Shown here: positions 24,061 to 44,268 of the stretch, one piece after another
How positions within the stretch are numbered: the first letter of the stretch is position 1
Layout of the letters: the number at the start of each line of letters is the position of its first letter
Source: Kineosporia sp. NBRC 101731
GTDB lineage: Bacteria; Actinomycetota; Actinomycetes; Actinomycetales; Kineosporiaceae
Direction of reading: 5' to 3'
Assembly (NCBI RefSeq): GCF_030269305.1
Contig: NZ_BSTC01000001.1
Span: forward strand, 385,467 to 449,466
DNA length: 64,000 bases
The notes under the pieces: model-generated
Seen by the model: the letters and a program-made list of their open reading frames with translations, nothing else
The model's database searches: none
What the model was told of the DNA's origin: nothing
Made by a program: the position numbers and the translations under genes

Positions 24061-24357
24061 CTAACCGGCCTGGGCCCGGCGCTCAGCCTCTTCGGCGGCC
24101 CGCTTGGCCTCGGTCTCGGCCGCGTTCTGGGCGGCCTCGCGGGCGTCCGCCGCGTCCTTGTCGTCCCACTCCTGCTCGTACCGGCTGATCAGGTCCATGA
24201 TCAGCGAGGCTCCGATCATGCACAGCAGAGCGACGATGCACCAATTCAGCACAGCTGTGTAGCCGTCGAGACCGCCTCTCTCGTACTGGATGTAGAGAAG
24301 CGGTCCCGCCAGCACGGCTGCGATCAAACAGCCGGCCTCCGGAGGAGTCGTCGTCAC
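24061..24357 (-). CDS. Small membrane protein at the end of the flhA operon
   Basis: 98-residue protein with two hydrophobic segments (residues about 8-24 and 36-58) followed by a charged Ala/Glu/Lys helix (63-98), predicted to lie in the cytosol as a short coiled coil. Its GTG start overlaps the stop of the FlhF-like gene (gtga), so the two are translationally coupled. I do not recognise the family. Its place third in flhA - flhF-like - this gene suggests a link to the export apparatus or to flagellum placement, by context only. Confidence 0.7.
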   Translation of the reverse strand: MTTTPPEAGCLIAAVLAGPLLYIQYERGGLDGYTAVLNWCIVALLCMIGASLIMDLISRYEQEWDDKDAADAREAAQNAAETEAKRAAEEAERRAQAG

Positions 24358-27300
24358 GAGTCCGCGCCACCCATGGCCAGCTGGGTGCAGAGCAGGGCGG
24401 CCCAGCCGACCCGGTCCACGCCGATCCCGTCGATCCGGACCACCGGCAGACCGAGCTGCAGCACCGACGCCGGCTCCCCGGAATCAAGGGCACCGTCCAG
24501 CGCCACCGCGTCGACCTTGCCCAGATACCTCACCCAGCGCTGGTTCTCCTCCAGCGACCGGGATCCGTCGAGTACTGCGATCACTGCCTCAGCTCCCACG
24601 GTCTGCAGGACCTTACGGACCTTGCCGGCATCTTCCGTGCGGTCGCCGTCGACCGGGACACTGACCACCACCGGACGGGTGATGGACACCAGATCCATGG
24701 CGCCGATCCGATCCGGACCCACCTCGTGCGGAACGGTGACCACCTTCCGTGGTTGTCCGTTGTGCGGCAGATCCAGTGCGGTGCGGGCGGCCTCGAGCCC
24801 GACGACATCAGAGGGGCCCACCACCGCGATCACCCCGACATCGTCCGGGATCGTCGGTTCGGGCATCGAGCCGAGCATCTGCACGACGGCCATGAACCGG
24901 TCACCGGACTGAAGATTCGCAGCCCATTCCGGCGGCACTCCGAGGTTGCCCAAGGCCGTCCGGTCGGCGGCCAGGGCCACGGCGGCGGTGGCCTGTTCGG
25001 TGGTCTGTTCGGTGCTCTCAGGTGCGGCCGGTTTCTCGGACATCGGGGACATCGGGGACGCCGTGGTCGCCCCGTCCTCACCGGCCCAGTTGATCTCCGG
25101 CTGGGTGGACCAGACAGAGGACGCGCTCCAGTCGGTGGTGTCCAGGTCCGGTGTCCAGGGGGCGGTCAGGGGGTCGCTCAGAGAATCGGCCGGTGCGGAC
25201 AACTGGATCGGGATAGAACCGAAACTAGCGGTGGGAGAGGGCGCCGAGTCCGGTCCGGGATCGTCGGCGGGCGGTTGTGCGGTGATGCCGGGCAACGGCT
25301 CGGGCGGTGTGGACCATTTGATGGCGGACAGAGCAGCGTCGCCGGACAGGGCAGCGTCGGTCGGCAGGGCAGCGTCGGTCGAGGGAGCACCTTCGGTGAA
25401 GGGGGTCTTCTCGGGCGAGAACGCTTCGGGAGCCGGAGTGATCGGGATCGGCATCGTGATCGGCTCCGTCGAACCGGCCGAAACTATTTGCCCTGCGGAT
25501 TGTTCCGGAACTGCAGTGATCCCGGGAAACGAGCCCGGCAGCGAGTCGGACGCCGACTCGGCGGCCGAAGGGGTGGTGGTTTCTGTCGCCGGCTCGGGTG
25601 CTGCACTGCTGGTGGAACCGAAAGGCGAGTCGAAGGGTGAGCTGAAGGGTGAGCTGAAGGGCGAGGGTGTGCTGGCCGGTGCGTTGGTTGCCGAAGGGGT
25701 GGTGGTTTCCGTCGTCGGCTCGGTGGCCGCGCCGGTGACCGAACCGAAGGGAGAACTGAACGGCGAGTCCGTCGTGGTGCTGGGCATCGCGTCGGACGGT
25801 GAGCCGGCAGCGGGAAGCGGGTCCGAGCCGAACGGTGAGGCCGCAATGCCCGGGACCGAGCTGGATCCGGAGTCCGCGGCCAGGCCGGCGGCCGAATCCG
25901 GCATCGAGGAGGTCGCCACCTCGGACAGCGGGTCGGCTGCCGTCGGTGTGACCGCCCCAGTGGCCGGTCCGGCCGGTGACCCGAACGGTGAATCGGCCGG
26001 TGCACTCAGGTTCGAACCACCCGACGATCCGGTCAGCGGGGCGGCCGTCGAGCTCGGTGCGGATCCGGTGACCGAACCCGGCGCTGAACCCGATACCAGA
26101 CCCGGGCTCGAGCTCTTCACCGAACCCGGCGCCAGGCCTGGGACCGGACTTTCCGCCGATCCCGGTACTGATCCGGGTGCCAGGCCTGGGACCGGACTTT
26201 CTACCGATCCCGGTACTGATCCGGGTGCCAGACCTGGGACTGAACTTTCCACCGATCCCAGCGCTGACCCCGGCACCGGAGTCGGCTCTGAACCCGGCAC
26301 CGAACTCTCTACCGAAACCGGGACCGAATCTGGCATCGAACCCGGGGTGGGGTTCGTGACCGCGTCCTTGGGCGCGTCCGTTGTTGGGGTTTCGGAGGTG
26401 GTGGCTTCCGGGGCCGGAACGGCCCAGGCCGCCGTGGCCTCGGCGGGGGAGGCCCAGCTCGACGTGGGGCCCTCATCGGGTGTTCCTGGCGCGGGGGCCG
26501 CGGGGGCGGGCCATTCCGGGCTGGTGTTGGCCGGGGTGGTGGCCCAGGTCGAGATCGTGTCCGTCTCCGCGCTGGGGGCGCTCGGCTGGGCGGGGACGAT
26601 GGGCTGGGCGCTCATGTCCGGGGTGCCGGAGGCCGGGACTGATCCGGAAGTTGCCTGTGCCGAGGGATTCTGATCGGTGGCGGTCTTCTGGGCGGTCAGT
26701 ACGGAGTGCGCGGCCGCGAGTTCACCCGCGGCCGCGGCCGCGCTGGCCCGGGCTGCCATGATCTCCCAGGCGGGAGGATCGTTGAGGGCGGCCCCGGTGG
26801 AGGATTCCATCCGCGGGGTCGGCACGGCCGGAGCCATCGGAATCGGGGCGACCGGGGCGGCGGTCTCCTTCTGGATCTCTTCCTGGGGCTCGTCCTTAGT
26901 CTTGGCCTTCTTGCGCCCGCCCAGTCGGATACCGAAAACCTTGATGCCGGAGCTCATCGCGGCCTCAGTAGGGGCAGTGCGAGCGGCGCTGACCGGCGCG
27001 GGGGCCACGGTGCCGTCGGCCGGCGTGCCCAGCGTCGGGTCAGTACCCGGGCCGGTGTGCCGCGCGTGGCTGCGGTCGCGGCGCGGGCGGTGCCGGCCAC
27101 TGTCGTCGGTCATGGTCTCGGCGGACGTGGCGTCCGTCGGCGCGGTCGATCCCGGTGCCGTTGCCGGGCTCGGCGATGAAAGGGCGCTCGGCGTCGGCGC
27201 GGAGGGGGTGACTCGAAAAGAGGGAGCAGACATGGAGGTGGCTTCCGGCGTCTTTCGCGCAGTGGGCTCGTTCTTCTTCGAACGTCGTGACTTTCCCTTG

Positions 27301-29975
27301 GGCAGAACGGTTGTCGCCCGGGGAGCGGTCGCGGGAAGGTCGGACAGATCCGGCCCGGCGCCGAGAGTGGCCGTCGTCGGCGCAGCCGTGTCGGCAGACT
27401 GGTCGGACCCGGTGGCCGGGGCTTGCGGCGTGAACGCCGGGGGCGGCGTCCCGAACTGCTGGCCGGATTCCTGGGCCGCCTGGCCGAACTGCTGGCCGGG
27501 CTGGCTGAACGGGGATTCCTGGGCCGCCTGGCCGAACTGCTGGCCGGGCTGGCTGAACGGGGATTCCTGGGCCGCCTGGCCGAACTGCTGGCCCGGTTGG
27601 CTGAATGAGGACTGCTGGGCCAGTTCACCGAACTGCTGAGTCTGACCGGATTCCGGCGTCGGCTGACCGAACGACAGTGATGCCCCGAACGGCGAGGGGC
27701 CACTGAACTGCTGGCTCTGCTCTTCGGACGGCTGCGAACCGAACTGCGGCGTCTGCGGCTCGGCCGGGGCCCCGAACTGACCGAACTGTGCAGCGTCCGA
27801 ACCGAACTGCTGAGCTGACGGGCTGAACGGAGTCGCCTCGGGCGCAGGAGCGGGAGCCGCGAACTGCGGTGTGACCGCCTCCGGCGAGCCCGGCTGGGCG
27901 GGGATCGACGCGACCGGGCCACCACCACCGGCGCTGGCACCGGCACCGGCACCGGCACCGGTAGCCGCGCCGAGGGCCGGGGCGGCCCACCGCTGGGCTT
28001 GGGCATCTTCGCCCCCGCCGGCCGGCTCGCCCCATCCTCCGATGAGCGTGGGGGTCTCCGCCAGGACAGGAGTTGCCGGAGAGGTCTCGGCCCAGGGCGA
28101 TGCCGCCGTCGGTTCGGGAGCGGTCAATGGGCTGTCCCGCTCGACGGCGGGCTTGAGCGCCGGTGTGGCCGGCGCCAGGGCCGGGGTCCCGGCCCACTGT
28201 GCGGCCGCGTCATCGGGCGTGGGGACTACCGGTGGCGTGGGCGTGCTGAACTCAGGGGCCAGCGCCGGTCCGGTCGGATCCGCCCATTTCGCCAGAAGTT
28301 CGGCCTCCGGGTCTGGTGATCCCGGGAGTGCCGAGGCGACCGGGGACACTGCCGGAGCCAGACCCGGAACCGGGACGTCCGGTGTGGCCGTCCCGGCGCG
28401 GGCCTCGGCCTCGTCCGGTGCGGCAGCGTGCTTCGGGGGGTCGGAGGGTGCCCGTGCCGGGTCGTCCGCACCACCCGACCCGGAGCCGCCGGAGCGGGCC
28501 CGAGGTGGAAGCGGAAGAAGCTTCGGGATTTCCCTCACCGTCGATGGATCGGAAGGAACACTGCCCGTGTTGAGGGGTAGCGCACCGCCGGTCTGCGCAG
28601 GCTGTCCCCCGGACGGCGGCTGATCTGTCATCTCCACCCGGATGCCCGGCCGGGAGTCCGTCATCAGGGAACCGGGAAGCGCGGCCCGGCGCGAGAGGCC
28701 CTTGCTCGCCGGCAGCGTCAGGTCTGAGGTCGGCGCCGACCGGTCCGAGGCCGGGGGCGTCGTGCCTCGCGGACGGGCCCAGGCCGGCCGCAACTGGCTG
28801 AAGTCCAGGTCGTCGCCGCCCCGGGTCTCCACCGTCAGGCTTTCCGGGATCTCGATCTGCTGCGCAACTGTCGTCACGGTCAGGTCGACGGGGGCGGTGC
28901 GGCCCAGGGTGGACGCGGATGTCCTCCCACCGGCGTCGGTCACCTCGGTGCGAATACCGGCGGGCGGGGTGGTCACGTCGACGGAGGTGTGGCCCTCGGC
29001 GGTGCACGGTGAAGGGGCGTTGTGGCCGGCCACGACGGCAGATGGACCGGCCCCGGTGGTGGCCGCCGCGACATCGCTCCCCGTCTCCGCGCCGGTCGGG
29101 TGTTCCGCCTTCGTCGCGGCCGTACGCCGACGCGCAGCCGCCTTGGCCGCCTTGGCCCTGGCCTTGCGGGCCGCCTTGGCCGCCCGCTGGACGTGGATCT
29201 CCTCGGCCCGGGCGGCGATGCGGGCCGCGCGCTCCTCGATCTCCTGCTCCTGCGCCTCGAGACGCTCGATCTCCCGGCGCTCGGCCTCCCGATCCACCTC
29301 GTCCGGCTGGGACTCCGCAGCCGCGATGTCCTCTTCCCAGTCGTCCCACTCGGCCTCGTCCCCGGCGAATTCGCCCGGGTCTGCCGGTGCTGTCGGTGCT
29401 GCCGGTGTTGCCGAACGGGAGAGCGGCAGACCCCGGCCCGTCGGCACCCGGCGCTCGTGCGATCGTCCACTGCTCGGGGCCCGCCCGGCGGGGTATCCGC
29501 CATGACCGAGAATCTCCGCCAGATCGAGCGTCTCGCGAACCTCTTCCTGCCCGTAGGGGTCGAACGACGGACCCCGGCCACTCCGGGGAACACCGAGGCC
29601 CAGGACCGGCATGCGCTCGTCCGAGGCCATGGCCGCCTCGAACGCGGCCTGCCGGGCCATGGCCAGTACAGCGGCGTCCTCGGTCGACTCGTCCTGCGAC
29701 CTGGCCTGCGACCCGGCCTGGCGGGCCAGGGTGATCAGGTCGCGGTAACCGGAGCGCTCCTGGTGCAGGGGAACGGCGGGCAGCGCGAGCTCTTCGTCGT
29801 CGAGCCCGTCACCGGGCACCTCGACGGCGACCTCGAAGCCCTCTTTGGCGAAGAATCCGAGGACGCCACCGCGGCGCACCTTCTCGGCCCGGACGATGCG
29901 GGCGAACGGACCACCCTCGTGACGTGCCTGCATGAGCAGCGCCTCGAGGTCGTCACCTTCAAGCAGCAAATTCAT
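24354..29975 (-). CDS. FlhF-like protein with huge repetitive linker and no P-loop
   Basis: 1,873 residues. Residues 1-55 match the FlhF N-terminus: a short helix region, then RAEKVRRGGVLGFFAKEGFEVAVEV, like the GGFFGFF segment of known FlhF. A basic coiled coil lies at about 225-290. About 1,400 residues then form a Pro/Ser/Thr/Ala/Gly linker with 16-residue repeats. The last 170 residues look like the FlhF/SRP-type G domain in order, but where GxTGVGKT is expected (from residue 1720) the sequence is GPSDVVGLEA. Lysine and the Ser/Thr ligands are missing and the G4-like segment reads ALDGALDSG. GTP binding is therefore unlikely. It starts inside flhA (17-base overlap), exactly where flhF usually lies. 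Typical FlhF is about 400 residues. Confidence 0.8.
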   Translation of the reverse strand: MNLLLEGDDLEALLMQARHEGGPFARIVRAEKVRRGGVLGFFAKEGFEVAVEVPGDGLDDEELALPAVPLHQERSGYRDLITLARQAGSQARSQDESTEDAAVLAMARQAAFEAAMASDERMPVLGLGVPRSGRGPSFDPYGQEEVRETLDLAEILGHGGYPAGRAPSSGRSHERRVPTGRGLPLSRSATPAAPTAPADPGEFAGDEAEWDDWEEDIAAAESQPDEVDREAERREIERLEAQEQEIEERAARIAARAEEIHVQRAAKAARKARAKAAKAAARRRTAATKAEHPTGAETGSDVAAATTGAGPSAVVAGHNAPSPCTAEGHTSVDVTTPPAGIRTEVTDAGGRTSASTLGRTAPVDLTVTTVAQQIEIPESLTVETRGGDDLDFSQLRPAWARPRGTTPPASDRSAPTSDLTLPASKGLSRRAALPGSLMTDSRPGIRVEMTDQPPSGGQPAQTGGALPLNTGSVPSDPSTVREIPKLLPLPPRARSGGSGSGGADDPARAPSDPPKHAAAPDEAEARAGTATPDVPVPGLAPAVSPVASALPGSPDPEAELLAKWADPTGPALAPEFSTPTPPVVPTPDDAAAQWAGTPALAPATPALKPAVERDSPLTAPEPTAASPWAETSPATPVLAETPTLIGGWGEPAGGGEDAQAQRWAAPALGAATGAGAGAGASAGGGGPVASIPAQPGSPEAVTPQFAAPAPAPEATPFSPSAQQFGSDAAQFGQFGAPAEPQTPQFGSQPSEEQSQQFSGPSPFGASLSFGQPTPESGQTQQFGELAQQSSFSQPGQQFGQAAQESPFSQPGQQFGQAAQESPFSQPGQQFGQAAQESGQQFGTPPPAFTPQAPATGSDQSADTAAPTTATLGAGPDLSDLPATAPRATTVLPKGKSRRSKKNEPTARKTPEATSMSAPSFRVTPSAPTPSALSSPSPATAPGSTAPTDATSAETMTDDSGRHRPRRDRSHARHTGPGTDPTLGTPADGTVAPAPVSAARTAPTEAAMSSGIKVFGIRLGGRKKAKTKDEPQEEIQKETAAPVAPIPMAPAVPTPRMESSTGAALNDPPAWEIMAARASAAAAAGELAAAHSVLTAQKTATDQNPSAQATSGSVPASGTPDMSAQPIVPAQPSAPSAETDTISTWATTPANTSPEWPAPAAPAPGTPDEGPTSSWASPAEATAAWAVPAPEATTSETPTTDAPKDAVTNPTPGSMPDSVPVSVESSVPGSEPTPVPGSALGSVESSVPGLAPGSVPGSVESPVPGLAPGSVPGSAESPVPGLAPGSVKSSSPGLVSGSAPGSVTGSAPSSTAAPLTGSSGGSNLSAPADSPFGSPAGPATGAVTPTAADPLSEVATSSMPDSAAGLAADSGSSSVPGIAASPFGSDPLPAAGSPSDAMPSTTTDSPFSSPFGSVTGAATEPTTETTTPSATNAPASTPSPFSSPFSSPFDSPFGSTSSAAPEPATETTTPSAAESASDSLPGSFPGITAVPEQSAGQIVSAGSTEPITMPIPITPAPEAFSPEKTPFTEGAPSTDAALPTDAALSGDAALSAIKWSTPPEPLPGITAQPPADDPGPDSAPSPTASFGSIPIQLSAPADSLSDPLTAPWTPDLDTTDWSASSVWSTQPEINWAGEDGATTASPMSPMSEKPAAPESTEQTTEQATAAVALAADRTALGNLGVPPEWAANLQSGDRFMAVVQMLGSMPEPTIPDDVGVIAVVGPSDVVGLEAARTALDLPHNGQPRKVVTVPHEVGPDRIGAMDLVSITRPVVVSVPVDGDRTEDAGKVRKVLQTVGAEAVIAVLDGSRSLEENQRWVRYLGKVDAVALDGALDSGEPASVLQLGLPVVRIDGIGVDRVGWAALLCTQLAMGGADS
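26131..26274 (-). repeat. Three tandem 48-bp units in the FlhF-like linker
   Basis: Units begin at 26131, 26179 and 26227. The first two are nearly identical and the third has drifted. Each encodes 16 residues rich in Pro, Gly, Ser and Val (PGSVPGS / VPGLAPGS type). The repeat keeps the frame. More degenerate units extend on both sides (about 26050-26340). Confidence 0.85.
27465..27608 (-). repeat. Three tandem 48-bp units coding FSQPGQQFGQAAQES-type repeats
   Basis: Units at 27465-27512 and 27513-27560 are identical; 27561-27608 differs by a few bases. Each encodes 16 residues (Gln, Phe, Gly, Pro, Ser). Looser QFG motifs continue downstream in the protein on either side. Exact identity of two units suggests recent slippage or unequal exchange. 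Confidence 0.9.
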
Positions 29976-32097
29976 GACTACTACTCACCTGTCCGACGGT
30001 CTCGATCTGGTGAATGCCGGTCGCCTCGGTGAAGGCAATGACGGGCAACTGGGGCAGCGATCCACGCAGCAGTCGCCGCATCGGCAGCCGCAGAGGTCCG
30101 GATATGAGGAGAACCGGCAGCTCACCACGCTGTTCAGCAGTGGTCTGGAGGGCAGAGATGTCCGAGACCAGGCGTTGTGCCTGGACCGGGTCGAGAGCGA
30201 TGACCACTCCCTGCTCACCGGCCCTCAGCGCCTCGCCGATCTGGGTCTCGACGGCGGGTTCGAGGGTGATGGCGCGCAGTACCCCGTCCCGCACGTAGTG
30301 CGCGGCGAGGGCCGGGCCGAGAGCGGCCCGGGCGGCCTCCAGCAGGGCGTCCGGATCGCTGGTGGAGCGGGCCCGCTGGCCCACACCCTCCAGGACCCGT
30401 CCGAGGTCGCGGATCGAGACCTGCTCGTCCAGCAGTCCCTGCAGCAGACGCTGCACCGCCGCGAGCGGCAGCACGCTGGGCACGAGTTCCTCGACCGCGG
30501 CCGGCCGGTCGTTCTTGAGCACCTCGAGCAGGTCGCGGGTGTCGTCCAGACTGAGAAGACGGGACGCGTTCTGGCGCACCATCTCGGCGAGGTGGGTGGT
30601 GACGACGGCGGCGCGCTCCACGATCGTGGCGCCGGCCAGCTCGGCCGAGGCACGGTACTCGATCGGTACCCAGACGGCGGGGAGACCGAACACCGGTTCG
30701 GTGGTGTGACGGCCGGGCAGGCTGTCCATCGAGTCGCCGATCGCCAGCAGGTGCCCGGGCGGGGCCTCGCCGGTGGCCACGCTGCTGCCGCCGATCCGGA
30801 TCTCGTAGGTGCCGGGTGCCAGCATCGCGCCGTCCCGGGTCCGCACCGGGGGCAGCACCAGGCCCAGGTCCAGGGCGGTCTTGCGGCGCAGGGCCCGCAC
30901 CCGGTCGAGCAGGTCGCCACCGCGGGCGGCGTCCACCAGGTCGACGGCGTCGGGGGAGAGCAGGAGTTCGAGGGGGTCGACGCGGAGCGAGTCGGTGACC
31001 GGGTCGCCGGTTCCGCCACCGGCCGGCAGCGGAACCTGGCCGGACGGCATCGCGATCGCGCCGCTGGCGGCGGCGGCCTCGGCCGCCATGTCGTCGCCGT
31101 GGGCGTCGGTGGAGCGGTAGGCCACGAAGAGCACCAGCCCGCCGACGATCAGGAACGGGATCTTGGGCATGCCCGGGACCAGGCAGAGAGCCAGCAGCGA
31201 ACCGGCGCCGATCATCAGGGCCTGACGGTGGCGTCCGAGCTGCTGGATGAGGTCGCTGCCGACGTCGCCGGCGCCGGTCGAGCGGGTCACGATCACACCG
31301 GTCGCCACCGACATCAGCAGCGCGGGAATCTGCGAGACCAGCCCGTCACCGACGCTGAGGAGGGCGTACTTCTGGATCGACTCACTGGCGCTGAGGCCGT
31401 TCTGCAGCATCCCGATCGCGAAACCACCGACCAGGTTGACCAGGGTGATGATGACCGCGGCCATCGCGTCGCCCTTGACGAACTTCGTGCCACCGTCCAT
31501 GGCGCCGTAGAAGTCGGCCTCGGCGGCGACGTCCTTGCGTCGCTGGCGGGCCGTGTCCTCGTCGATCAGGCCGGAGTTCAGGTCGGCGTCGATCGCCATC
31601 TGCTTGCCCGGCATGGCGTCGAGGGTGAAGCGGGCCCCGACCTCGGCGACGCGGGAGGCACCGCTGGTGACAACGGTCAGCTGGATGATGATCAGGATCG
31701 CGAAGATGACCAGACCGATGATCAGGTTGGCCCCGATCACGATGTGGCCGAACGCTTCGATCACGTGCCCGGCGAAACCGTCGCGCAGCACCAGCCGGGT
31801 CGAGCTGACGTTCAGGGCCAGCCGGAAGATGGTGGCCACCAGCACGATGGTCGGGAAGACCGCGAAGTCGAGAACGCGCTGCACCTGCAGCGAGACCAGC
31901 AGAACGATCAGGCTGATGCCGATGTTCAGGGCGATCAGGATGTCCAGGAGGGCGGCCGGCAGCGGCACGACCATCATGAGGACGACGAGCACGATCGCTA
32001 TGGGTACGGCGATACGGGTCATCCGGTTGGACGGCACGGCGGCGACCTCCGACAGCAGGGCAGGTTGGATCTGTGTGAGGGCGGGCGCCTCACTCAC
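29959..32097 (-). CDS. flhA: Flagellar export apparatus protein FlhA
   Basis: 712-residue inner-membrane component of the type III flagellar export gate. Residues about 25-325 contain eight hydrophobic segments with the family's FPTIVLVATIFRLALNVSSTR and RFTLDAMPGKQMAIDADL (the FHIPEP loop). Residues 345-712 form the cytosolic substrate/chaperone-docking domain. The GTG start at 32097 has a weak ribosome site. It heads the operon flhA - FlhF-like - small membrane protein, with a sigma-28-like promoter about 55 bases upstream. Confidence 0.96.
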   Translation of the reverse strand: MSEAPALTQIQPALLSEVAAVPSNRMTRIAVPIAIVLVVLMMVVPLPAALLDILIALNIGISLIVLLVSLQVQRVLDFAVFPTIVLVATIFRLALNVSSTRLVLRDGFAGHVIEAFGHIVIGANLIIGLVIFAILIIIQLTVVTSGASRVAEVGARFTLDAMPGKQMAIDADLNSGLIDEDTARQRRKDVAAEADFYGAMDGGTKFVKGDAMAAVIITLVNLVGGFAIGMLQNGLSASESIQKYALLSVGDGLVSQIPALLMSVATGVIVTRSTGAGDVGSDLIQQLGRHRQALMIGAGSLLALCLVPGMPKIPFLIVGGLVLFVAYRSTDAHGDDMAAEAAAASGAIAMPSGQVPLPAGGGTGDPVTDSLRVDPLELLLSPDAVDLVDAARGGDLLDRVRALRRKTALDLGLVLPPVRTRDGAMLAPGTYEIRIGGSSVATGEAPPGHLLAIGDSMDSLPGRHTTEPVFGLPAVWVPIEYRASAELAGATIVERAAVVTTHLAEMVRQNASRLLSLDDTRDLLEVLKNDRPAAVEELVPSVLPLAAVQRLLQGLLDEQVSIRDLGRVLEGVGQRARSTSDPDALLEAARAALGPALAAHYVRDGVLRAITLEPAVETQIGEALRAGEQGVVIALDPVQAQRLVSDISALQTTAEQRGELPVLLISGPLRLPMRRLLRGSLPQLPVIAFTEATGIHQIETVGQVSSSHEFAA

Positions 32098-33416: not shown

Positions 33417-36400
33417 TTACGCCACGTCGTCAGGGACGTGGAACTGGGTCTCGTCGTCCTCGCGCTGCGGGTCGAAACCACCGCCGACCGGACCGGCCGG
33501 CATCAGCGGCCGCCCGTCCTCGTCGTAGTCGTAGTCGTCGTAGTCGTCGGAACCCGGCTGCCAGGAGCTGGCGGTCCGGCGCATCCGCAGGCGCTCGGCG
33601 CCGAGCAGGCCGGTGCCGAGCAGCATCAGCAGCAGGCCCAGGGCCAGGCCCGGGATGAGCAGCACCGGGGTGCCAGTGAAGGCCAGGCCGCCCCCGGTGT
33701 CGTTGCCGCCGCTCCCGCCGGTGCTGCTGCCATCACCGTCACCGGTGTTGTTGCCGCCCCCACCGCCGGAGCCACTGCCACTGCCGTCACCGTCACCGTC
33801 ACCGGTGTCGTTGCCGCCGCCTCCCCCGCCGCCGGTGCCGCCCGCCTCGACGACCGACACCTCGACGGTCTGCTCCGAGGTCTGGCCGAGGTCGTCGATC
33901 ACCGACATCACGAAGGAGTCGTCGCCGAGTTCGTCGGCAGCCGTGTAGACACAGCTCTTACCGCTGTCCGAGATCTTCGTGGAGCCGAGCCCGTCCGGGG
34001 TGGAGCAGGCGGTCACCTCGAGGCCCGAGTAATCCGGGCCGCGCGGTGCGATCGCCTTACTGGCACCGAGCACCACATCGGTCCGGATCGTCACCGTCGC
34101 GGCGAGCACCGGGATGAAGGTGAACGCCTCCACGAAGCTCGTCGAGCCCGCCGAGTTCGTCACGGTCACCGTGGTGGGCCCACCGGCGTGCGGCGGCGTG
34201 GACACCGTCAGCACGTTCGAGGTCGCTGCCTTCCACCGGCTCAGCGCCTGGCCGGCCGACATCGGCCGGTAAGCCCGGGCCCTGGTGTCGTTGTCCCGGG
34301 TCGCGCGCCCCAGGCCGTTCTGCGTGGAAGCCTTCCGGGAAACCTTCTCGGGTCCGACCGAGGGGTCGTCCACGTCAGCACCGAGCGTCAGGTCGGTGCC
34401 CTGCACCCCGTCGAAGGTGACGGTGGTGGAGCTGTCGAACCCGGTCCCGCTGATCGTGACCCGGGTGCCACCGGTCACCGGCCCGACGTTCGGTGTCAGC
34501 CCCTGCACAGTCGGCAACCCGGTGCGCGGCACGTAGGTGAACAGGTAGGAGCTGCTGGTGCCCTGCGGGTTCCGCAGGAGCACGGCGATCCCCCCGGCCG
34601 TGTGGGCCGGTGTCTTCACCGACAGCGTGGTGCTGCTGACGAGTGTGAGGTCCAGGCCCTCGACCCCGTCGAACGTCACCCGGTTCACGTTCTGCATTCC
34701 GAGACCCCGGAACACCACGGTGGTTCCACCGGCGGTCGGGCCGCTGCGCGGCGTCATGCTGTCGACCACCGGCACGCTGTTCGCGGCCACGTAGGTGAAG
34801 TCGGAGGCACTGGCCCCGGTGCTGCTACCCAGCGGTGAGGTCACGATGACGCTGACCGTGCCGGCCGCGTGCTGCGGTGAGGTCGCGAGGATCGTGGTGC
34901 TGTTGATCACCGTGACGTTCGTGGCCGCACTGCCACCGAAGCTGACACCGGTGGTGGTGAGGAGCCCGGTGCCGTAGATCGTCACCTGGGTGCCGCCGTC
35001 GACCGGCCCGACGCTCGGCGTCAGGGCGGTGACCGTCGGCGCCACGTTCACCGGGAGGTAGGTGTACAGGCCGGTGTTGGCGCTCTCGATGTTGCCCGCA
35101 CCGACGACGACCACGTTCACCAGACCGGCCGCGTGCTGCGGCGTGGTCACGGTGATCTGGGTGCCGGCGCCGTTCACGCTGAAGGCTGTACCCGCCGTAC
35201 CGCCGAAGCGGATCCCGGTGGCCCCGGTGAACCCGGTACCGGTGATCGTCACGACCGTGCCGCCGGTGACCGGACCGGAAATCGGTGCGACCCCGGTGAT
35301 GTTGGCGTCGAAGGCAACGTAGGAGTAGTTCAGCGTGACGATGCCACCCGCCGTGGCGATGATGATCGGGACCGTGCCCGTGGTCAGGCCGGCCGGCATG
35401 GTGAAGGTGATCTGGGTGTCACCGGTGACGGTGTAGTTGGTGATGACGTTGGCGCCGACGGTCAGCGCCAGGAGCGAGCTGAACCCGGTACCGGTGATGG
35501 TGACCTGGTTGCCACCCGGGAGGGGGCCGCTGGACGGCACGACCGTGGCCGGGCCGGCCGGGTTCGGCGTGTAGACGAACGTGCCCGCGGTGAGCGAGGT
35601 ACCGCCCGGGCCCGAGAGGGTCACGGTGTAGGCGCCGGCGTCGTTCGACGGGGAGTCGAACTTCAGCGACGAGGCCGTGCTGCTGCCCTTCGGGTTCACC
35701 GTCTTGGTGCCGACCTGGACCGACGTGATCAGGTCGAAGTTGCTGCCGGTCACCGTCACCTCGGTACCGCCGCTCACCGGTCCGGTGATCGGGCTGATGC
35801 CGGTGGTCGTCGGAACCGGGTTGTAGGTGAAGTTGGTGCTCGTACTGGTCACCGACCCGGTCTTGACCGTCACCGCGATCGGGCCGGCCGAACCGGGCGG
35901 GGTGGTGACCCGCAGAACCGTGGGGCTCACGTACTCCGTGGTCAGTGCGGTGGTACCCCAGTAGGCGACGGACGACGAGGTGAAGTTGGTGCCGTTCACC
36001 GTCACCGTCGTGCCACCGGTGGCCGGGCCGTTGTCGGGGGTGAGGTTCCCGATCGTGGGCGTCGCCGCGACGTAGGTGTACGTACTGTCCAGACTGACGA
36101 GGCTCGTCCCACCGGCGGTGGTGACGGTCACCGGCACGACGCCCGGGGCGTCCCCGGGCGGGGTGGTGACCGTGATCGAGGTCAGCGTCGGGGTCCCGAC
36201 CACCGTGGCGTTGTTGGCGCCGAACTTGACCGTGGTGCCGGTCAGGGTCACGAAGAGGCCCTGCACCGTCACGGTGTCGTTCCCGGCGATCGGCCCGCTG
36301 TTCGGGCTGACCGAGGTGATGGCGACGACACCCGGCACCGGGACCACCGGGGCGGGGTCGGCGAAGAGGAAGGTTCCGGCCGGAGTGGTTCCACTCGGGC

Positions 36401-38231
36401 TGATCAGCGTCACCGCCACGGACCCGGCGGCGTGGGCCGGGGTGCTGAAGGTGATGTTCGTGGCCCCGATGGTCGGGCCGGTGACGGCCGCGCCGTCGAC
36501 CCGGACCTCGGTGACGGCGTCCAGCTCGGTGCCGGTGATGGTTACCGCGGTGCCGCCCGCTGTCGTGCCGGTCACCGGGGTCATCGCGGTGACGACCGGG
36601 ACGGCCTGGTAGGTGAAGGTCTGGGGGGCCGAGGTGTCGGAACCGCGCTTGACCGTGACCGGCACGCCGCCGGCCGTCGTCGTCGCGGGCGTGACCGCGG
36701 TCAGCTTCGTGGCGCTGACGTAGGTTGTCGCCACCGCGTTGCCGTCGACGGTGATCTGCGAGTCGGTGGTGAACCCGGTGCCGGTGGCGGTGATCGTCGT
36801 GCCGCCGGTGATCGGCCCGGTGGTCGGGCTGATGCTGCTCAGGCCCAGGGCGTCCTGGTAGGTGTAGGCGGTGGCGGCACTCGCCGCCGACGTCCCCCCG
36901 TTGTTGGCGACCGTGACGAACACGGTGCCCGTTCCGGCCGGTGCGGTGGCCGTGATCGAGGTCGGGCTGTTGACCGTCACGTTGGTGGCGTTCGCGGCAC
37001 CGAACTTCACGGTCGGGGTTCCCACCCCGGCTCCGCTGAAGCCAGTGCCGGTGATGGTCACCGACGTGCCCCCGCCCGGCGAACCGCCCGAGGGAGCCAC
37101 ATTGGTCACCGTCGGGGCGCCGACGTAGGCGAAGGTGTTCGTCCCGGTGCTCGCGCCGCCCGGCGTGGGGGTCGTCACGACCACGTTCGCCGCACCGGCC
37201 GCGTGAGCGGGGGCGGTCGCCGTGATCTGCGTGGTGCTGTCGATCGAGTAGCTGGCGGAGATCCCGTCGAACTCGACCTTGGACGCGCCGCGGAAGTTCG
37301 AGCCGGTGATGACGACGCTGGTGCCGCCGGTGGTCGGCCCGGTGGCCGGGGCGAGCCCACTGACCGTGGGCACGAGGGCGTTGGTGGTGGAGCACTCGGT
37401 GTGGCCGGCGATCACGTCACCGGCGCCGACGGCGTCCAGCAGGCCGCCGTTGCCGCCGAGCTTCAGGTGAAGGGCGTTGGTGACCAGCTTGGTCTTGCCG
37501 CCGGTCGTGGTCCGGATCTGCTCGTTCAGCGTCAGCGTGCCCAGGTTGGCCACGTTGATCACGGTGTTCGCGGCCGGCTGGTCGGGCGTCGCGTTGAGAA
37601 CGCCGGAGAGCTTCAGCCCGGTGACGGTGGAGGTGGCGGTCACTCCGGAGGCGTCACCGGTGCACTGCGACGAGATCAGGTCGGCGGATACTCCCTGGAG
37701 GCCCAGCACGGTGCCCAGACCGAGGCCGTCGACCGCGGAGGTCGCGTGCGCGGTGTCTTTCAGGTCGTCACCATGGGCGGCCACGGTGGCCGTGCCACTG
37801 CTGAGGAGGCCGGGAACCCCGACGCTCGCGGTGGTCGCGGTCGCGGGACCGCCCGGCCAGTCGGCCTTCGGCGTCTGCTCGGTGCCGATCGCGGCGGCCC
37901 CCAGGAGCCGGACGTTGGCGTAGAGGCCGTAGGACGACGCAGCGGTCGAACCGTCGGCGGCCGCCGCGAAATTCTTCGGCCCGATCTTCTTCTTGTGCTT
38001 CGTCGGCTTCCCCTCCGCCGAGTGCGGGGAAGCGGCCGGGGCCGTGGACACGGTCGGGCCGGTCGTCAGGGGTGTTGCCGAAGCCGTGGCTGCGGCCAGG
38101 GGCAGCCCTCCGCCGGCGACGAGGAGACCCGCGACGACCTGCGCCACCCCTCGTCTGTGCCGGAAACGGGCACGGCCAGGTGAAAATGACCCCCCGCCCG
38201 GGTTCGTGCTGGTCCGTGTCAAGACACGCAT
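33417..38231 (-). CDS. Giant cell-wall-anchored surface protein, 12 TIG domains, LAFTG signal
   Basis: 1,604 residues. The N-terminal signal (about 1-52) has a long basic region before the hydrophobic core. Residues about 65-265 look like a choice-of-anchor-type domain (GLYANVRLLGAAAIG...). Twelve IPT/TIG immunoglobulin-like domains follow, each starting with a P.V..L.P..GP..GGT.VTITGTGF pattern. A Gly/Asp/Ser-rich spacer leads to LAFTG at 1516-1520, a membrane segment (1522-1545) and RLRMRR. Unusually, about 50 acidic residues (DDYDDYDYDED...) follow the basic stop. The last TIG domain is split by a basic insertion of about 54 residues. It lies upstream of its sortase and between flhB and flhA, so adhesion or sheath-like functions linked to motility are conceivable. 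Confidence 0.88.
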   Translation of the reverse strand: MRVLTRTSTNPGGGSFSPGRARFRHRRGVAQVVAGLLVAGGGLPLAAATASATPLTTGPTVSTAPAASPHSAEGKPTKHKKKIGPKNFAAAADGSTAASSYGLYANVRLLGAAAIGTEQTPKADWPGGPATATTASVGVPGLLSSGTATVAAHGDDLKDTAHATSAVDGLGLGTVLGLQGVSADLISSQCTGDASGVTATSTVTGLKLSGVLNATPDQPAANTVINVANLGTLTLNEQIRTTTGGKTKLVTNALHLKLGGNGGLLDAVGAGDVIAGHTECSTTNALVPTVSGLAPATGPTTGGTSVVITGSNFRGASKVEFDGISASYSIDSTTQITATAPAHAAGAANVVVTTPTPGGASTGTNTFAYVGAPTVTNVAPSGGSPGGGTSVTITGTGFSGAGVGTPTVKFGAANATNVTVNSPTSITATAPAGTGTVFVTVANNGGTSAASAATAYTYQDALGLSSISPTTGPITGGTTITATGTGFTTDSQITVDGNAVATTYVSATKLTAVTPATTTAGGVPVTVKRGSDTSAPQTFTYQAVPVVTAMTPVTGTTAGGTAVTITGTELDAVTEVRVDGAAVTGPTIGATNITFSTPAHAAGSVAVTLISPSGTTPAGTFLFADPAPVVPVPGVVAITSVSPNSGPIAGNDTVTVQGLFVTLTGTTVKFGANNATVVGTPTLTSITVTTPPGDAPGVVPVTVTTAGGTSLVSLDSTYTYVAATPTIGNLTPDNGPATGGTTVTVNGTNFTSSSVAYWGTTALTTEYVSPTVLRVTTPPGSAGPIAVTVKTGSVTSTSTNFTYNPVPTTTGISPITGPVSGGTEVTVTGSNFDLITSVQVGTKTVNPKGSSTASSLKFDSPSNDAGAYTVTLSGPGGTSLTAGTFVYTPNPAGPATVVPSSGPLPGGNQVTITGTGFSSLLALTVGANVITNYTVTGDTQITFTMPAGLTTGTVPIIIATAGGIVTLNYSYVAFDANITGVAPISGPVTGGTVVTITGTGFTGATGIRFGGTAGTAFSVNGAGTQITVTTPQHAAGLVNVVVVGAGNIESANTGLYTYLPVNVAPTVTALTPSVGPVDGGTQVTIYGTGLLTTTGVSFGGSAATNVTVINSTTILATSPQHAAGTVSVIVTSPLGSSTGASASDFTYVAANSVPVVDSMTPRSGPTAGGTTVVFRGLGMQNVNRVTFDGVEGLDLTLVSSTTLSVKTPAHTAGGIAVLLRNPQGTSSSYLFTYVPRTGLPTVQGLTPNVGPVTGGTRVTISGTGFDSSTTVTFDGVQGTDLTLGADVDDPSVGPEKVSRKASTQNGLGRATRDNDTRARAYRPMSAGQALSRWKAATSNVLTVSTPPHAGGPTTVTVTNSAGSTSFVEAFTFIPVLAATVTIRTDVVLGASKAIAPRGPDYSGLEVTACSTPDGLGSTKISDSGKSCVYTAADELGDDSFVMSVIDDLGQTSEQTVEVSVVEAGGTGGGGGGGNDTGDGDGDGSGSGSGGGGGNNTGDGDGSSTGGSGGNDTGGGLAFTGTPVLLIPGLALGLLLMLLGTGLLGAERLRMRRTASSWQPGSDDYDDYDYDEDGRPLMPAGPVGGGFDPQREDDETQFHVPDDVA

Positions 38232-41506: not shown

Positions 41507-43462
41507 TCACCCCCGCCGGACGGTCATATCACGCAGCGCGTCGACTCCCTGTCGCCACGTCCTGGGCGACAGCACCGATCCATTGATCTGAGGGTCTTGC
41601 TGCTGGGACCGGCGGCCCGAGGGCCGGGCCGGAGCCTGGGGTGCGCGTCCCTGCGCCTGGGCACGAGTCTGCTGGGTGGGAACCGAGGAGCGATCAACGC
41701 TGCCGGGCAGCTGGTTCCGGTCGGGCTGGGTGGATCGATGGGACTGAGTGGTGCGGCCCCGCTGGGCGGGCAGCACCGACTGGGCCCGGCGGGCCGGGGT
41801 GGGTGCCGGCACCGAGGCCGGCGGCTGGGCCCGCTCGGGACGTAGCGAGGGGTAGGCCTCGGCCTGGAACTCAGCCACCTGCCGCGCGGTGCGCTCCGGC
41901 AGGGTCTCCTGCCGTGCGGGACGCACATCGGCGCGAGAACGTGCCTGGAGATCGATGTTCGGACGCGGTCGGGGTGCGGTCGGGGTCTGGGCCCGGGTCT
42001 GGGCGTCGAGCGGCGCGGCCGGGGAGTCCGGGGCGAACGTGCTACGGGCGGCCCGCCTTCCGGGCCTCGCCTCGGCGGCCTGCCTCGGTGCCGGAACCGG
42101 TGTGGAAACCGGCCTGGAAACCGGCGCGGGCTGGGGTACTGGAGTGGGGCGGGGTGCCGGAGTGGGGCGGGGCATCTGGGCCGGCCGGGGCGCCGGGGCG
42201 GTCCGGCCGGCTGCGCGCAGTGCCGTGGCCAGGTCCGGGTAGTCGTCCACGTTCAGGGCACCCGGCAGAGGGGTGGGTGTGTCGTCGGCCGGGGCCTCAC
42301 GCAGTGACGCCCGGTTCTCGGCGCGGGTGCGCGGGGCCAGGTCGACGGGCGGTCCCGCGGCCCGGCGGCCCGAGGGCCGGGGTGCCGGGGCGAGCGGGGG
42401 CGGGTTGTCCAGATCGAGAGCAACGGACGAGGTGCTCTCCCCGGTCGTCCCGCTCACCGTTGGTAGCGGGTCGACGGAGTCACGGACGTCGATGAGCAGC
42501 GAGTCGACCGGAGCCACGGTGTCGTGCTGTGCCTGCGTGCCCGGCCCGAACTCGCTCAGATGTTCGTAGCTGACGGCCGGCTCCGGCTCCGCGTACGTCT
42601 CGGAGTGGCCGTACGTCTCGCGGTAGTCGGATGTCTCGGGGTAGTCGGATGTCTCGGAGTTGTCATACGTCTCGGGGTGGTCATACGTCTCGCGGTGATC
42701 GTAGGTCTCGGAGCGGTCGTACGTCTCGGGACTGTCGTACGGCTCGGGCCGTCCGTACTGCTCGAGGTTGTCGGACCGCTCGAGGTTGTCGTACTGCTCG
42801 GTGTCGAAGGGTTGCTCGGCCCCGGACGGCTGGATCTCGTTCTGCTCGGTCGAGTTCTGCTCGAACAGGGCGGCCAGCTGCACCGCGGCGTCTTCGCTCT
42901 CGTGCAGCTCCTGGGAGTCGATGTGTTCCGGCCTGCTGACAGAACTGGGGATCCGGGTGGGCACCACGGTGGGAACCGTGACTCCCCGCGGACCGGCCCG
43001 GCGACGGCCCCGCCGCCGGGAGCGGCGGCTTGTCGGAGCAGGTTCGTCGTCTACCGTTTTCTTCCCGAAACCCAGCTGCTCGCGCAGGCTCGCCCCGATG
43101 AAACCGGTGACCCCGCTCGATGTCCGGGCGCCGGAACGGCTACGCCGGGATCCGGCCGAGTGGGCTGCGACCGCCTCGGCGAGCTGCTCGTGCTGCCTCT
43201 CGTTCCCCTCCTGCCCACCGTCGATGTCGGCGAGCATGGTCACCCCTTGCGCGGTGACGCCGAGAAGCAGCTTGCGGTCGGAGATCTCGATGACGGCCAG
43301 ATTGGCCTCGCGGGAGAGACCGATGCGCTCGACGATCTTCAGGCCGCTGCCGCCGTTCTCACCGTGGGCCCGGCGGGCGATGCGGGCGACGAGCCCGATC
43401 GACACCAGCACCACGATCAGGCCGCCGACAACCCGGCCCAGCAGGTCCAGGTCGCCGCCCAT
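41507..43462 (-). CDS. fliO: FliO-like protein with very long repetitive C-terminal extension
   Basis: 651 residues, against about 100-200 for usual FliO. Residues 1-90 are the FliO part: a membrane segment (about 7-26), RRAHG, then LKIVERIGLSREANLAVIEISDRKLLLGVTAQGVTMLADI. After a basic patch (RRSRRRGRRR, about 145-155) the protein becomes disordered: acidic Gln/Glu, hexapeptide xxETYD repeats (about 240-295), then a 300-residue Pro/Arg/Ala-rich tail ending in a basic RTWRQG... segment. The ATG at 43462 overlaps the fliN stop. Position between fliN and fliP confirms identity. FliO assists FliPQR gate assembly; the extension's function is unknown. Confidence 0.85.
   Translation of the reverse strand: MGGDLDLLGRVVGGLIVVLVSIGLVARIARRAHGENGGSGLKIVERIGLSREANLAVIEISDRKLLLGVTAQGVTMLADIDGGQEGNERQHEQLAEAVAAHSAGSRRSRSGARTSSGVTGFIGASLREQLGFGKKTVDDEPAPTSRRSRRRGRRRAGPRGVTVPTVVPTRIPSSVSRPEHIDSQELHESEDAAVQLAALFEQNSTEQNEIQPSGAEQPFDTEQYDNLERSDNLEQYGRPEPYDSPETYDRSETYDHRETYDHPETYDNSETSDYPETSDYRETYGHSETYAEPEPAVSYEHLSEFGPGTQAQHDTVAPVDSLLIDVRDSVDPLPTVSGTTGESTSSVALDLDNPPPLAPAPRPSGRRAAGPPVDLAPRTRAENRASLREAPADDTPTPLPGALNVDDYPDLATALRAAGRTAPAPRPAQMPRPTPAPRPTPVPQPAPVSRPVSTPVPAPRQAAEARPGRRAARSTFAPDSPAAPLDAQTRAQTPTAPRPRPNIDLQARSRADVRPARQETLPERTARQVAEFQAEAYPSLRPERAQPPASVPAPTPARRAQSVLPAQRGRTTQSHRSTQPDRNQLPGSVDRSSVPTQQTRAQAQGRAPQAPARPSGRRSQQQDPQINGSVLSPRTWRQGVDALRDMTVRRG
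42592..42753 (-). repeat. Nine 18-bp units coding xxETYD hexapeptides in FliO
   Basis: An 18-base periodicity (tacgtctcgg at about 42593, 42611, 42665, 42683, 42719 and variants in between) encodes ETYD/ETSD/ETYG units with two variable residues. The array stays in frame and is acidic and Tyr-rich. Confidence 0.85.
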
Positions 43463-44268
43463 CACGTCGCGTCCCGGGTAACGATCTCGGTGATGCGCAG
43501 GCCGAAGCTCTCGTCCACGACCACGACTTCGCCCCGGGCCAGCAAGGTGCCGTTGACCAGCAGGTCGGCCGGGGAGCCGGCGAGGCGATCGAGCTCCACC
43601 ACGTCGCCGGGGGCGAGCGCGAGCAGCTGGCGCACCGACATCCGGGTCCGGCCGAGCTCGCAGGTCACCTCCATCTCGACGTCGCGCAGCATCTCGATGC
43701 CCCAGCTGTTGCCGCCCGTGCCCACGGCCGATCGGGAACCGCCCTGGGCGGGCACCGACGCGGCGGGCGGGGCCATCTGGGTGAGGGACAGGCCGATGAC
43801 CGCGGTCGTCGTGCCGTCCGGTCCGGCCAGCGGGAGGATGACGACGGTGCCGCCGGTGAGCACGTCGAGGCATCCCTCGACGGGGGTCGCGGTCGGGTCG
43901 CCGTCCAGCCGGCCGCCCAGCGAACTGGCGATCGAGTCGAGCGCCGGGCGCAGGGCCTGAGCGGGCTCCAGTGTTCCGAAAGGGGTTCCGGCCAGGGCGT
44001 CGACCAGCTCCTGACCGACGACCAGGAGCACCTTGCCCTCGATCCCGCCGGAGAGGAACGCCGTGATCGCAGCCCCCGCCGGTTCGGGCAGGGTGGCCTG
44101 ATCCGGTGCGTGGACGGGATCGCCGATGGTCAGCGGTGACGCGGACGGAATCTGCGGCAGAGCTTCCCGCACGGCCCCGATGGCGGCCTGGACCGCGGCG
44201 TCCCGGTTGCCGGCGCCGGCTTCGGCACTGCGCTGCTCAGGAACTAGGGGTGAGGCGGAGAAAGACAT
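43462..44268 (-). CDS. fliN: Flagellar motor switch protein FliN (long, with CheC/FliY-like N-terminus)
   Basis: 268 residues. The C-terminal 85 residues are the FliN/SpoA domain (MLRDVEMEVTCELGRTRMSVRQLLALAPGDVVELDRLAG... GEVVVVDESFGLRITEIV), which forms the lower C-ring and binds CheY-P with FliM. The N-terminal 180 residues contain a segment (AITAFLSGGIEGKVLLVVG..., about 65-165) resembling the CheC/FliY fold. No clear ExxN phosphatase motif is visible, so a structural role is more likely. It overlaps fliO by four bases and starts 143 bases after fliM. Confidence 0.88.
   Translation of the reverse strand: MSFSASPLVPEQRSAEAGAGNRDAAVQAAIGAVREALPQIPSASPLTIGDPVHAPDQATLPEPAGAAITAFLSGGIEGKVLLVVGQELVDALAGTPFGTLEPAQALRPALDSIASSLGGRLDGDPTATPVEGCLDVLTGGTVVILPLAGPDGTTTAVIGLSLTQMAPPAASVPAQGGSRSAVGTGGNSWGIEMLRDVEMEVTCELGRTRMSVRQLLALAPGDVVELDRLAGSPADLLVNGTLLARGEVVVVDESFGLRITEIVTRDAT

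Follow-up and report, generated by a model that had tools for sequence, protein, structure and literature searches.

FlhF is the bacterial protein that tells the cell where to build its flagella. We analysed 64,000 nucleotides of Kineosporia sp. NBRC 101731 (contig NZ_BSTC01000001.1, positions 385,467 to 449,466 of the forward strand; hereafter the window), in which an exceptionally long FlhF-like gene lies behind flhA. An initial annotation, made from the sequence alone, had described a gene of 1,873 residues overlapping flhA, and its coordinates proved exact. The gene is on the minus strand, and comparison of its coordinates with those of flhA gives an overlap of 17 bases. The features of the locus, in window coordinates, are as follows.

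29959 to 32097, minus strand: flhA (PF00771, E = 3.5e-237).
24354 to 29975, minus strand: FlhF-like gene, 1,873 residues, stop codon at 24354-24356 (open reading frame (ORF) list and translation).
29808 to 29975, minus strand: N-terminal domain, residues 1-56, with a predicted FliG-interacting domain (FID) fold (AlphaFold2 (AF2) and Foldseek).
25011 to 29807, minus strand: linker, residues 57-1655, rich in Ala, Pro, Ser, Thr and Gly, net charge -87 (composition).
24357 to 25001, minus strand: predicted pseudo-NG domain of the signal recognition particle (SRP) type, the last 215 residues, with a short N-subdomain remnant and a G-domain (AF2, Foldseek and hhalign).
24789 to 24818, minus strand: former P-loop site GPSDVVGLEA, residues 1720-1729 (alignment).

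No internal stop interrupts the 1,873 codons, and the frame is coding, with a ratio of nonsynonymous to synonymous substitution rates (dN/dS) below 1 in all regions tested in four genome pairs. A frameshift or assembly artefact was considered for the giant ORF and rejected, as six genomes of the genus group agree.

AF2 modelled the N-terminal domain (predicted local distance difference test score, pLDDT, 85.1) as strand-helix-strand-strand (strands at residues 2-7, 26-35 and 44-52, helix at 10-21). Among 350,542 Protein Data Bank (PDB) chains, Foldseek ranked the FID of Shewanella FlhF first (9en1_G; probability 1.00, TMt 0.78, root mean square deviation (rmsd) 1.6, E = 0.25). According to the available text on that protein, its first 44 residues, three antiparallel strands and one helix, are the site of FliG interaction (PMC11236974). 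The FlhF profile TIGR03499 aligns to residues 6-102 of the full protein (E = 0.0026; 17.8 bits, below the curated cut-off of 174.15). All 34 members of the N-domain alignment A3 match this profile at E <= 1, the best at 2.4e-9 and the window protein at 2.9e-4, and hhalign comparison of profile A3 with true FlhF gave P = 3.9e-9. A PDB sequence-profile search with the N-domain returned 9en1 at E = 0.99, ranked below polymerases and others. The FlhF-like character of the first 55 or so residues, including the GGVLGFF near the N-terminus pointed out in the initial annotation, is thus confirmed by fold and profile. By its model the domain has the FliG-interacting fold of the FlhF family, and it is predicted to bind FliG.

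The C-terminal domain was modelled with a pLDDT of 93.8 and a predicted TM score (pTM) of 0.89. Foldseek gave 101 matches at E <= 0.001, and the top 50 are without exception SRP-type GTPase entries; FlhF stands at rank 3 (8r9r; E = 9.2e-8, TMq 0.61, rmsd 5.5) and rank 22 (2px0). Using hhalign, the C-domain profile aligned colinearly with 14 true actinobacterial FlhF (columns 50-208 against 173-360; score 38.0, P = 1.7e-4), while 60 column-shuffled FlhF profiles scored at most 16.6, reversed FlhF 12.7, FtsY 20.9 and a single Ffh 20.1. These fold and profile-profile comparisons were needed because sequence searches alone did not recognise the domain: Pfam matched nothing in the full 1,873-residue protein, NCBIfam searches with 47 C-domain sequences one by one gave no FlhF and scattered weak families with one member each, and a PDB sequence-profile search gave no SRP match, with weak Rossmann-like and designed proteins instead. 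Ffh and FtsY have the same NG fold as the C-domain, but the profile match to them is much weaker than to FlhF, and separate genes are present. The genome contains two full-length SRP54-type genes (frames of 411 and 536 residues), here taken to be ftsY and ffh, and four partial matches that we do not regard as FlhF. The models therefore point to the C-terminal SRP-type NG fold of the FlhF family with a shortened N-subdomain. The G-domain order suggested previously holds, in that the domain is SRP-type and colinear with FlhF, and the unrelated fold that was named as a refutation did not occur; its extent needs correction, to about 200 residues including the N-subdomain remnant rather than 170.

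The nucleotide-binding motifs of FlhF are absent from this domain. At the P-loop position GPSDVVGLEA has no Lys, and no Ser/Thr at the binding positions, as had been noted before, and does not fit GxxxxGK[ST]; in the alignments, the G3 and G4 positions contain neither DTAG nor TKxD. This predicts a pseudo-GTPase. Among 47 diverse C-domain sequences, P186 is invariant and P177, D191 and W200 are nearly so, all within the last 40 residues (..PV..LDG.PA....WA..L); G62, at the old P-loop, is also invariant, and P23 and V113 are nearly invariant. No orthologue of the partner protein FlhG (DQAxxLR N-terminus) was found in 58 relatives including the genome itself, which gave weak generic ATPase matches only (best 7.7e-15; own genome 1.3e-10 at 29% identity, on another contig), as compared with 1.3e-78 to 1e-110 for true FlhG orthologues elsewhere. 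Of 20 genomes searched for FlhG, three had a strong match, and these are the ones with canonical FlhF; the remaining 17 gave 3.4e-12 at best or nothing. In summary, the protein resembles FlhF (TIGR03499; 8r9r, 2px0, 9en1) in its order of FID, linker and NG domain, in both folds and in its locus behind flhA, and differs from it by the loss of P-loop, DTAG and TKxD, by an FlhG partner that the searches did not find and by a linker of about 1,600 residues. Its identity as an FlhF-type protein rests on the N-domain fold, the colinear NG fold and the flhA-adjacent locus.

A paralogue accompanying a complete FlhF was also considered and rejected. No second FlhF was found in the genome and none exceeds the TIGR03499 cut-off in 296 genomes of the class, so the separate complete flhF raised as a counter-test was not found.

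The position behind flhA is shared by relatives and by true FlhF. Among the 58 relatives flhA was found in 30, and in 29 of them the gene behind it starts with the N-domain (the exception being G028), its start lying -32 to +4 bases from the flhA stop. Nine phylum genomes with true FlhF were fetched. In eight of them flhA lies within the stretch, and FlhF there always begins no more than 11 bases from the stop of flhA. The locus of the window gene is thus that of the FlhF family. Separately, phylum genome G447 has an FlhF over the cut-off and no flhA in the fetched stretch nor in the phylum flhA list, possibly owing to an incomplete assembly.

Of the 29 FlhF-like proteins in relatives, 24 are complete (287 to 2,368 residues), while contig ends truncate the other five. 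The six genus-group genomes encode 1,873-2,368 residues, whereas the other 18 complete relatives encode 287-1,027, and the Kineosporia-group protein has about two to five times the length of complete relatives in the family (483-1,027 residues), the excess being nearly all linker. The great length is therefore special to the Kineosporia genus group. Two Kineosporia sp. filed under another genus code (R_H_3, G011, and A_224, G009) do not have giant proteins (797 residues in one, cut in the other). The closest named relative is Kineosporia mesophila, with 98% N-domain identity. The search behind flhA in actinobacterial genomes proposed by the initial annotation was carried out, with protein length and P-loop state recorded: in a pattern scan of named genomes (the best 80 of 317 relatives), 66 of 80 genes were complete and GxxxxGK[ST] was found in none of the 66. 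The named relatives include Kineosporia, Kineococcus, Cellulomonas, Actinotalea, Sanguibacter, Demequina, Actinokineospora, Actinoplanes, Micromonospora, Planomonospora and Quadrisphaera. Two Actinoplanes have the short form of the gene.

Within the class, 36 of 296 genomes have flhA. The FlhF-like gene is present in 25 of these (members G078, G165 and G263 being placed in the family by eye from their N-termini) and missing in 11 (G285, G207, G117, G252, G216, G100, G317, G235, G340 of family code f45, G028 and G189). In the 11 genomes the N-domain match is nowhere better than E = 0.158, against 1.1e-25 to 1.9e-29 in four positive controls, with the limit that profile A3 might overlook very divergent N-domains; the C-domain profile gave nothing convincing there either (best 1.7e-4).

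Across the phylum, FlhF exceeds the cut-off in 14 of 296 genomes and flhA is found in 52. We classified the gene behind flhA for 35 of these genomes; it carries a P-loop in 16 and lacks one in 15, it is missing there in three, and in one it is cut. The other 17 flhA genomes lie outside this count, five of them with true FlhF. Two of the three genomes scored as lacking the gene are incomplete (G563 79%, G610 83% complete), with only 600-700 bases behind flhA read. Half of the 16 P-loop genes score below the FlhF cut-off (G412, G531, G540, G452, G442, G599, G413 and G512). DTAG is altered in seven of these eight (e.g. DTPG, DTPP), several also having an altered TKxD (e.g. THLD, SKAD), while G412 retains DTAGRS and TKLDE; none of the eight genomes has a strong FlhG match. 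These eroded FlhF of other actinobacterial lineages share with the Kineosporia protein the slot behind flhA, the GG..GFF N-domain and the lack of a strong FlhG match, but unlike it they retain the GxxxxGK[ST] P-loop.

We mapped these states on an unrooted FlhA tree of phylum genomes (76 rows, two of them long; quick search with Shimodaira–Hasegawa-like approximate likelihood ratio test (SH-aLRT) support). G025 was left out for its short FlhA (404 residues), and four rows with the gene cut by a contig end were scored as unknown. Over 63 scored rows, P-loop presence and absence require one change, on a branch with support of 100. The P-loop side has 18 rows (15 with a P-loop, two without the gene, one cut) and the window side 58 (46 P-loop-less, two with the N-domain only, seven without the gene, three cut). 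The P-loop loss is thus old, clade-wide and confined to a single branch of the FlhA tree, and it is not peculiar to Kineosporia. The earlier description of an FlhF without nucleotide binding stands as regards the lost motifs, yet what is specific to the genus is the length alone. Taking true FlhF as the ancestral form gives the direction of change on the unrooted tree, and the single change together with the intermediates then suggests that FlhG was lost, the switch motifs eroded and the P-loop was lost once. Most simply, this was followed by gene loss, C-domain loss or linker growth.

The linker is probably disordered, judging from its composition. It had been described as about 1,400 residues of low-complexity repeats; a long linker is indeed present, but it covers about 1,599 residues, and repeats make up only part of it. 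Tandem Repeats Finder (TRF) gave 15 rows, of which the top two are arrays of a 48-base unit. The arrays, and the islands conserved in the genus group, are listed below.

27465 to 27621, minus strand: tandem array, 48-base unit x 3.3, encoding a 16-residue FGQ.. repeat (TRF).
26131 to 26259, minus strand: tandem array, 48-base unit x 2.7, encoding a 16-residue VPGSVESPVPGLAPGS repeat (TRF).
29505 to 29672, minus strand: two islands, residues 102-123 (LAMARQAAFEAAMA.DER) and 134-157 (RGPSFDPYGQ.EVRETLDL).
28479 to 28556, minus strand: island, residues 474-499 (SDPS.VR-IPKLLPLPP-ARSG), in 6 of 6 genus-group genomes.
26901 to 27101, minus strand: basic islands, residues 959-985 and 1010-1025 (RHRPRRDR.., GIKVFGIRLGGRKK).

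In the six genus-group genomes the linker is fast-changing and gappy, with islands of high conservation. Island 102-123 is found in all six and island 134-157 in full or nearly so in five; basic island 959-985 is missing in one (G001), and further islands at residues of about 391-404, 557-570 and 883-904 are not all complete in all six. Two other motifs recur in linkers across the class, an LLAAAD-like motif (36 of 71 named and 8 of 59 survey proteins) and STES..F (20 of 71 and 16 of 59), with at most one match in shuffled linkers; the patterns were composed after viewing the sequences, the two protein sets have genomes in common, and the shuffled linkers account for composition alone. Growth is not restricted to this gene. 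The FliO open frame at 41507-43873 (minus strand) spans 909 codons from stop to stop, and FliO frames measure 552-1,055 codons in the genus group versus 131-533 in the main matches of other order members; in the genus group, lengthened tails are not limited to a single flagellar protein. The linker of G043 (Kineococcus indalonis, L222) has a long Glu/Arg-rich repeat resembling a single alpha-helix, a different route to lengthening.

Taken together, we consider it somewhat more probable than the contrary that the gene is the clade's flhF orthologue, its switch dead since the common ancestor, and that its product is a pseudo-GTPase serving as a nucleotide-independent tether of FliG to an anchor. 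In the available text, Shewanella FlhF is described as a tether between FliG and the polar landmark HubP, and its NG-HubP binding is unchanged by guanosine diphosphate (GDP) or guanosine triphosphate (GTP) (PMC11236974). Since HubP docking needs no GTP and the FlhF modules for tethering are kept here, a constitutive, nucleotide-free tether can be envisaged. The N-domain would still bind FliG and help to seed FliF-FliG, and the pseudo-NG domain, by analogy, would dock without nucleotide to a putative anchor at the membrane or pole. The linker may set the reach between the two and may carry docking motifs. Such a tether would be constitutive, without GTP hydrolysis or FlhG, and the site and number of flagella would then be set by the amount of tether and by the anchor, not by a GTP cycle. 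The suggestion of the initial annotation that a tether would be a different mechanism does not hold, in that normal FlhF is itself modelled in the available text as a FliG-landmark tether with nucleotide-independent landmark contact (PMC11236974).

Several observations weigh against the tether. According to the available text of PMC12713375, Pseudomonas FlhF binds FliG best when GTP-bound, and GDP weakens the binding, so a nucleotide-free form might not bind FliG. The Foldseek E value for the N-domain is 0.25. With 11 of the 36 flhA-bearing class genomes devoid of the gene, and with no pseudo-NG domain recognisable behind the N-domain of G090 and G068, the function is dispensable in some flagellates. 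The fold tests cover C-terminal parts within alignment A2, and on the deepest P-loop-less side branch (e.g. G414, G393, G449 and G409) the C-terminal parts are very divergent, so that an NG fold there is putative. As to the linker, a scan of six other family proteins (two of them cut) turned up the genus-group islands only as matches to the loosest pattern, and the window protein carries neither the LLAAAD-like nor the STES..F motif. The genus group has the longest FliO frames as well, and the giant linker may therefore reflect lineage-wide drift.

An unlikely alternative is that the protein acts in assembly instead of positioning, holding FliG away from FliM/FliN until the MS ring forms, with the pseudo-NG domain as a mere folded cap or dimeriser and a linker without specific role. 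Conservation is highest in the N-domain (dN/dS 0.05-0.13 in four genus-group pairs), which is also the sole recognisable part in G090 and G068, as this alternative would have it. However, the pseudo-NG domain also evolves under constraint (dN/dS 0.12-0.32, genus group), and 47 diverse sequences align over it; both end domains are thus under purifying selection in the genus group.

Slightly less probable is a slow relic, in which an FlhF deprived of its regulator and switch drifts towards loss and the linker is a neutral repeat expansion in a genome rich in guanine and cytosine. The repeated losses of the gene in the class agree with this, as do the 48-base arrays and the fast drift of two large linker segments (dN/dS 0.39-0.69). 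The window protein also lacks the class-wide linker motifs, and in view of the long FliO frames, neutral lengthening of the linker is a serious competing explanation. Against a relic stand the constraint on the end domains, the conserved linker islands and the retention of the P-loop-less gene in 46 of 58 tree rows.

A doubtful further idea concerns the giant chain itself. HubP and FimV are polar landmarks with a long, acidic, repeat-bearing cytoplasmic stretch, to which the linker is similar by analogy only, and Pfam finds no domain in the Kineosporia protein. The Kineosporia chain might fuse landmark and tether, the acidic linker with its conserved basic islands and short motifs forming or recruiting a capture site for many FliF-FliG complexes via the FID. 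If so, one nucleotide-free protein would perform the task divided elsewhere among FlhF, FlhG and HubP, and a round spore would grow its flagella in one patch.

We regard it as very improbable that the G-domain fold has been re-used for another ligand or protein at the old nucleotide site, as a switch but not a GTP switch; the conserved positions in the last 40 residues, with G62, P23 and V113, would suit such a site, but no search pointed to a ligand and these positions may be structural. That an unrelated protein lies behind flhA by chance is hardly credible despite the empty Pfam result, the lack of an NCBIfam FlhF match for the C-domain and of an SRP GTPase in the PDB profile search, given two independent fold matches, a controlled profile match and P-loop-bearing intermediates at the same locus.

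The surrounding genes are flagellar. The cluster comprises ten tested genes between 40.6 and 56.3 kb on the minus strand (fliP, fliO, fliN, fliL, motB, motA, an FlgE-type gene, fliK, a transglycosylase/NlpC gene and a flagellar-type ATPase gene), plus flhB and fliR. Between flhB and flhA, at 33417-38231 (minus strand), lies a gene whose 1,604-residue product contains 12 TIG/IPT stretches and looks surface- or adhesin-type, an odd site for such a protein. The gene 3' of the FlhF-like gene is the following.

24061 to 24357, minus strand: small 98-residue protein with hydrophobic stretches (ORF list).

Where the FlhF-like gene is missing, small ORFs resembling its product, as judged by eye, stand directly behind flhA; since these look-alikes directly follow flhA elsewhere, the product may be an unnamed actinobacterial flagellar protein.

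A 2023 survey, whose starting point was a set of Salmonella or Bacillus queries run in BLASTP and PSI-BLAST, reported FlhF as absent from the later, FlgFG-less actinobacterial classes (PMC10746217). With such queries a divergent P-loop-less FlhF could be overlooked, and the survey probably missed the P-loop-less orthologue in these classes, as far as our sequence comparisons go. This correction assumes that those classes correspond to the P-loop-less side of the tree, which the named relatives support for the class of Kineosporia. In the table of the Kineococcus genome paper, flhA is number 1673 and csrA number 1677, with no gene named between them (PMC2587704). No report of a P-loop-less FlhF was found in the literature searched, mostly without subscription papers, and the term 'actino' was not found in the accessible part of a review on FlhF and FlhG (PMC12826062).

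Loss of the P-loop is common to many flagellated actinobacteria, in which flagella may be placed without a GTP switch. One phylum holds at this locus a series from FlhF with FlhG, through FlhF without FlhG, eroded motifs and no P-loop, to the N-domain only and no gene at all, and the flhA-bearing class genomes without the FlhF-like gene form a natural control for its function. FlhF has usually been studied as a GTP switch, and this natural separation-of-function series makes the purpose of its GTP cycle directly testable.

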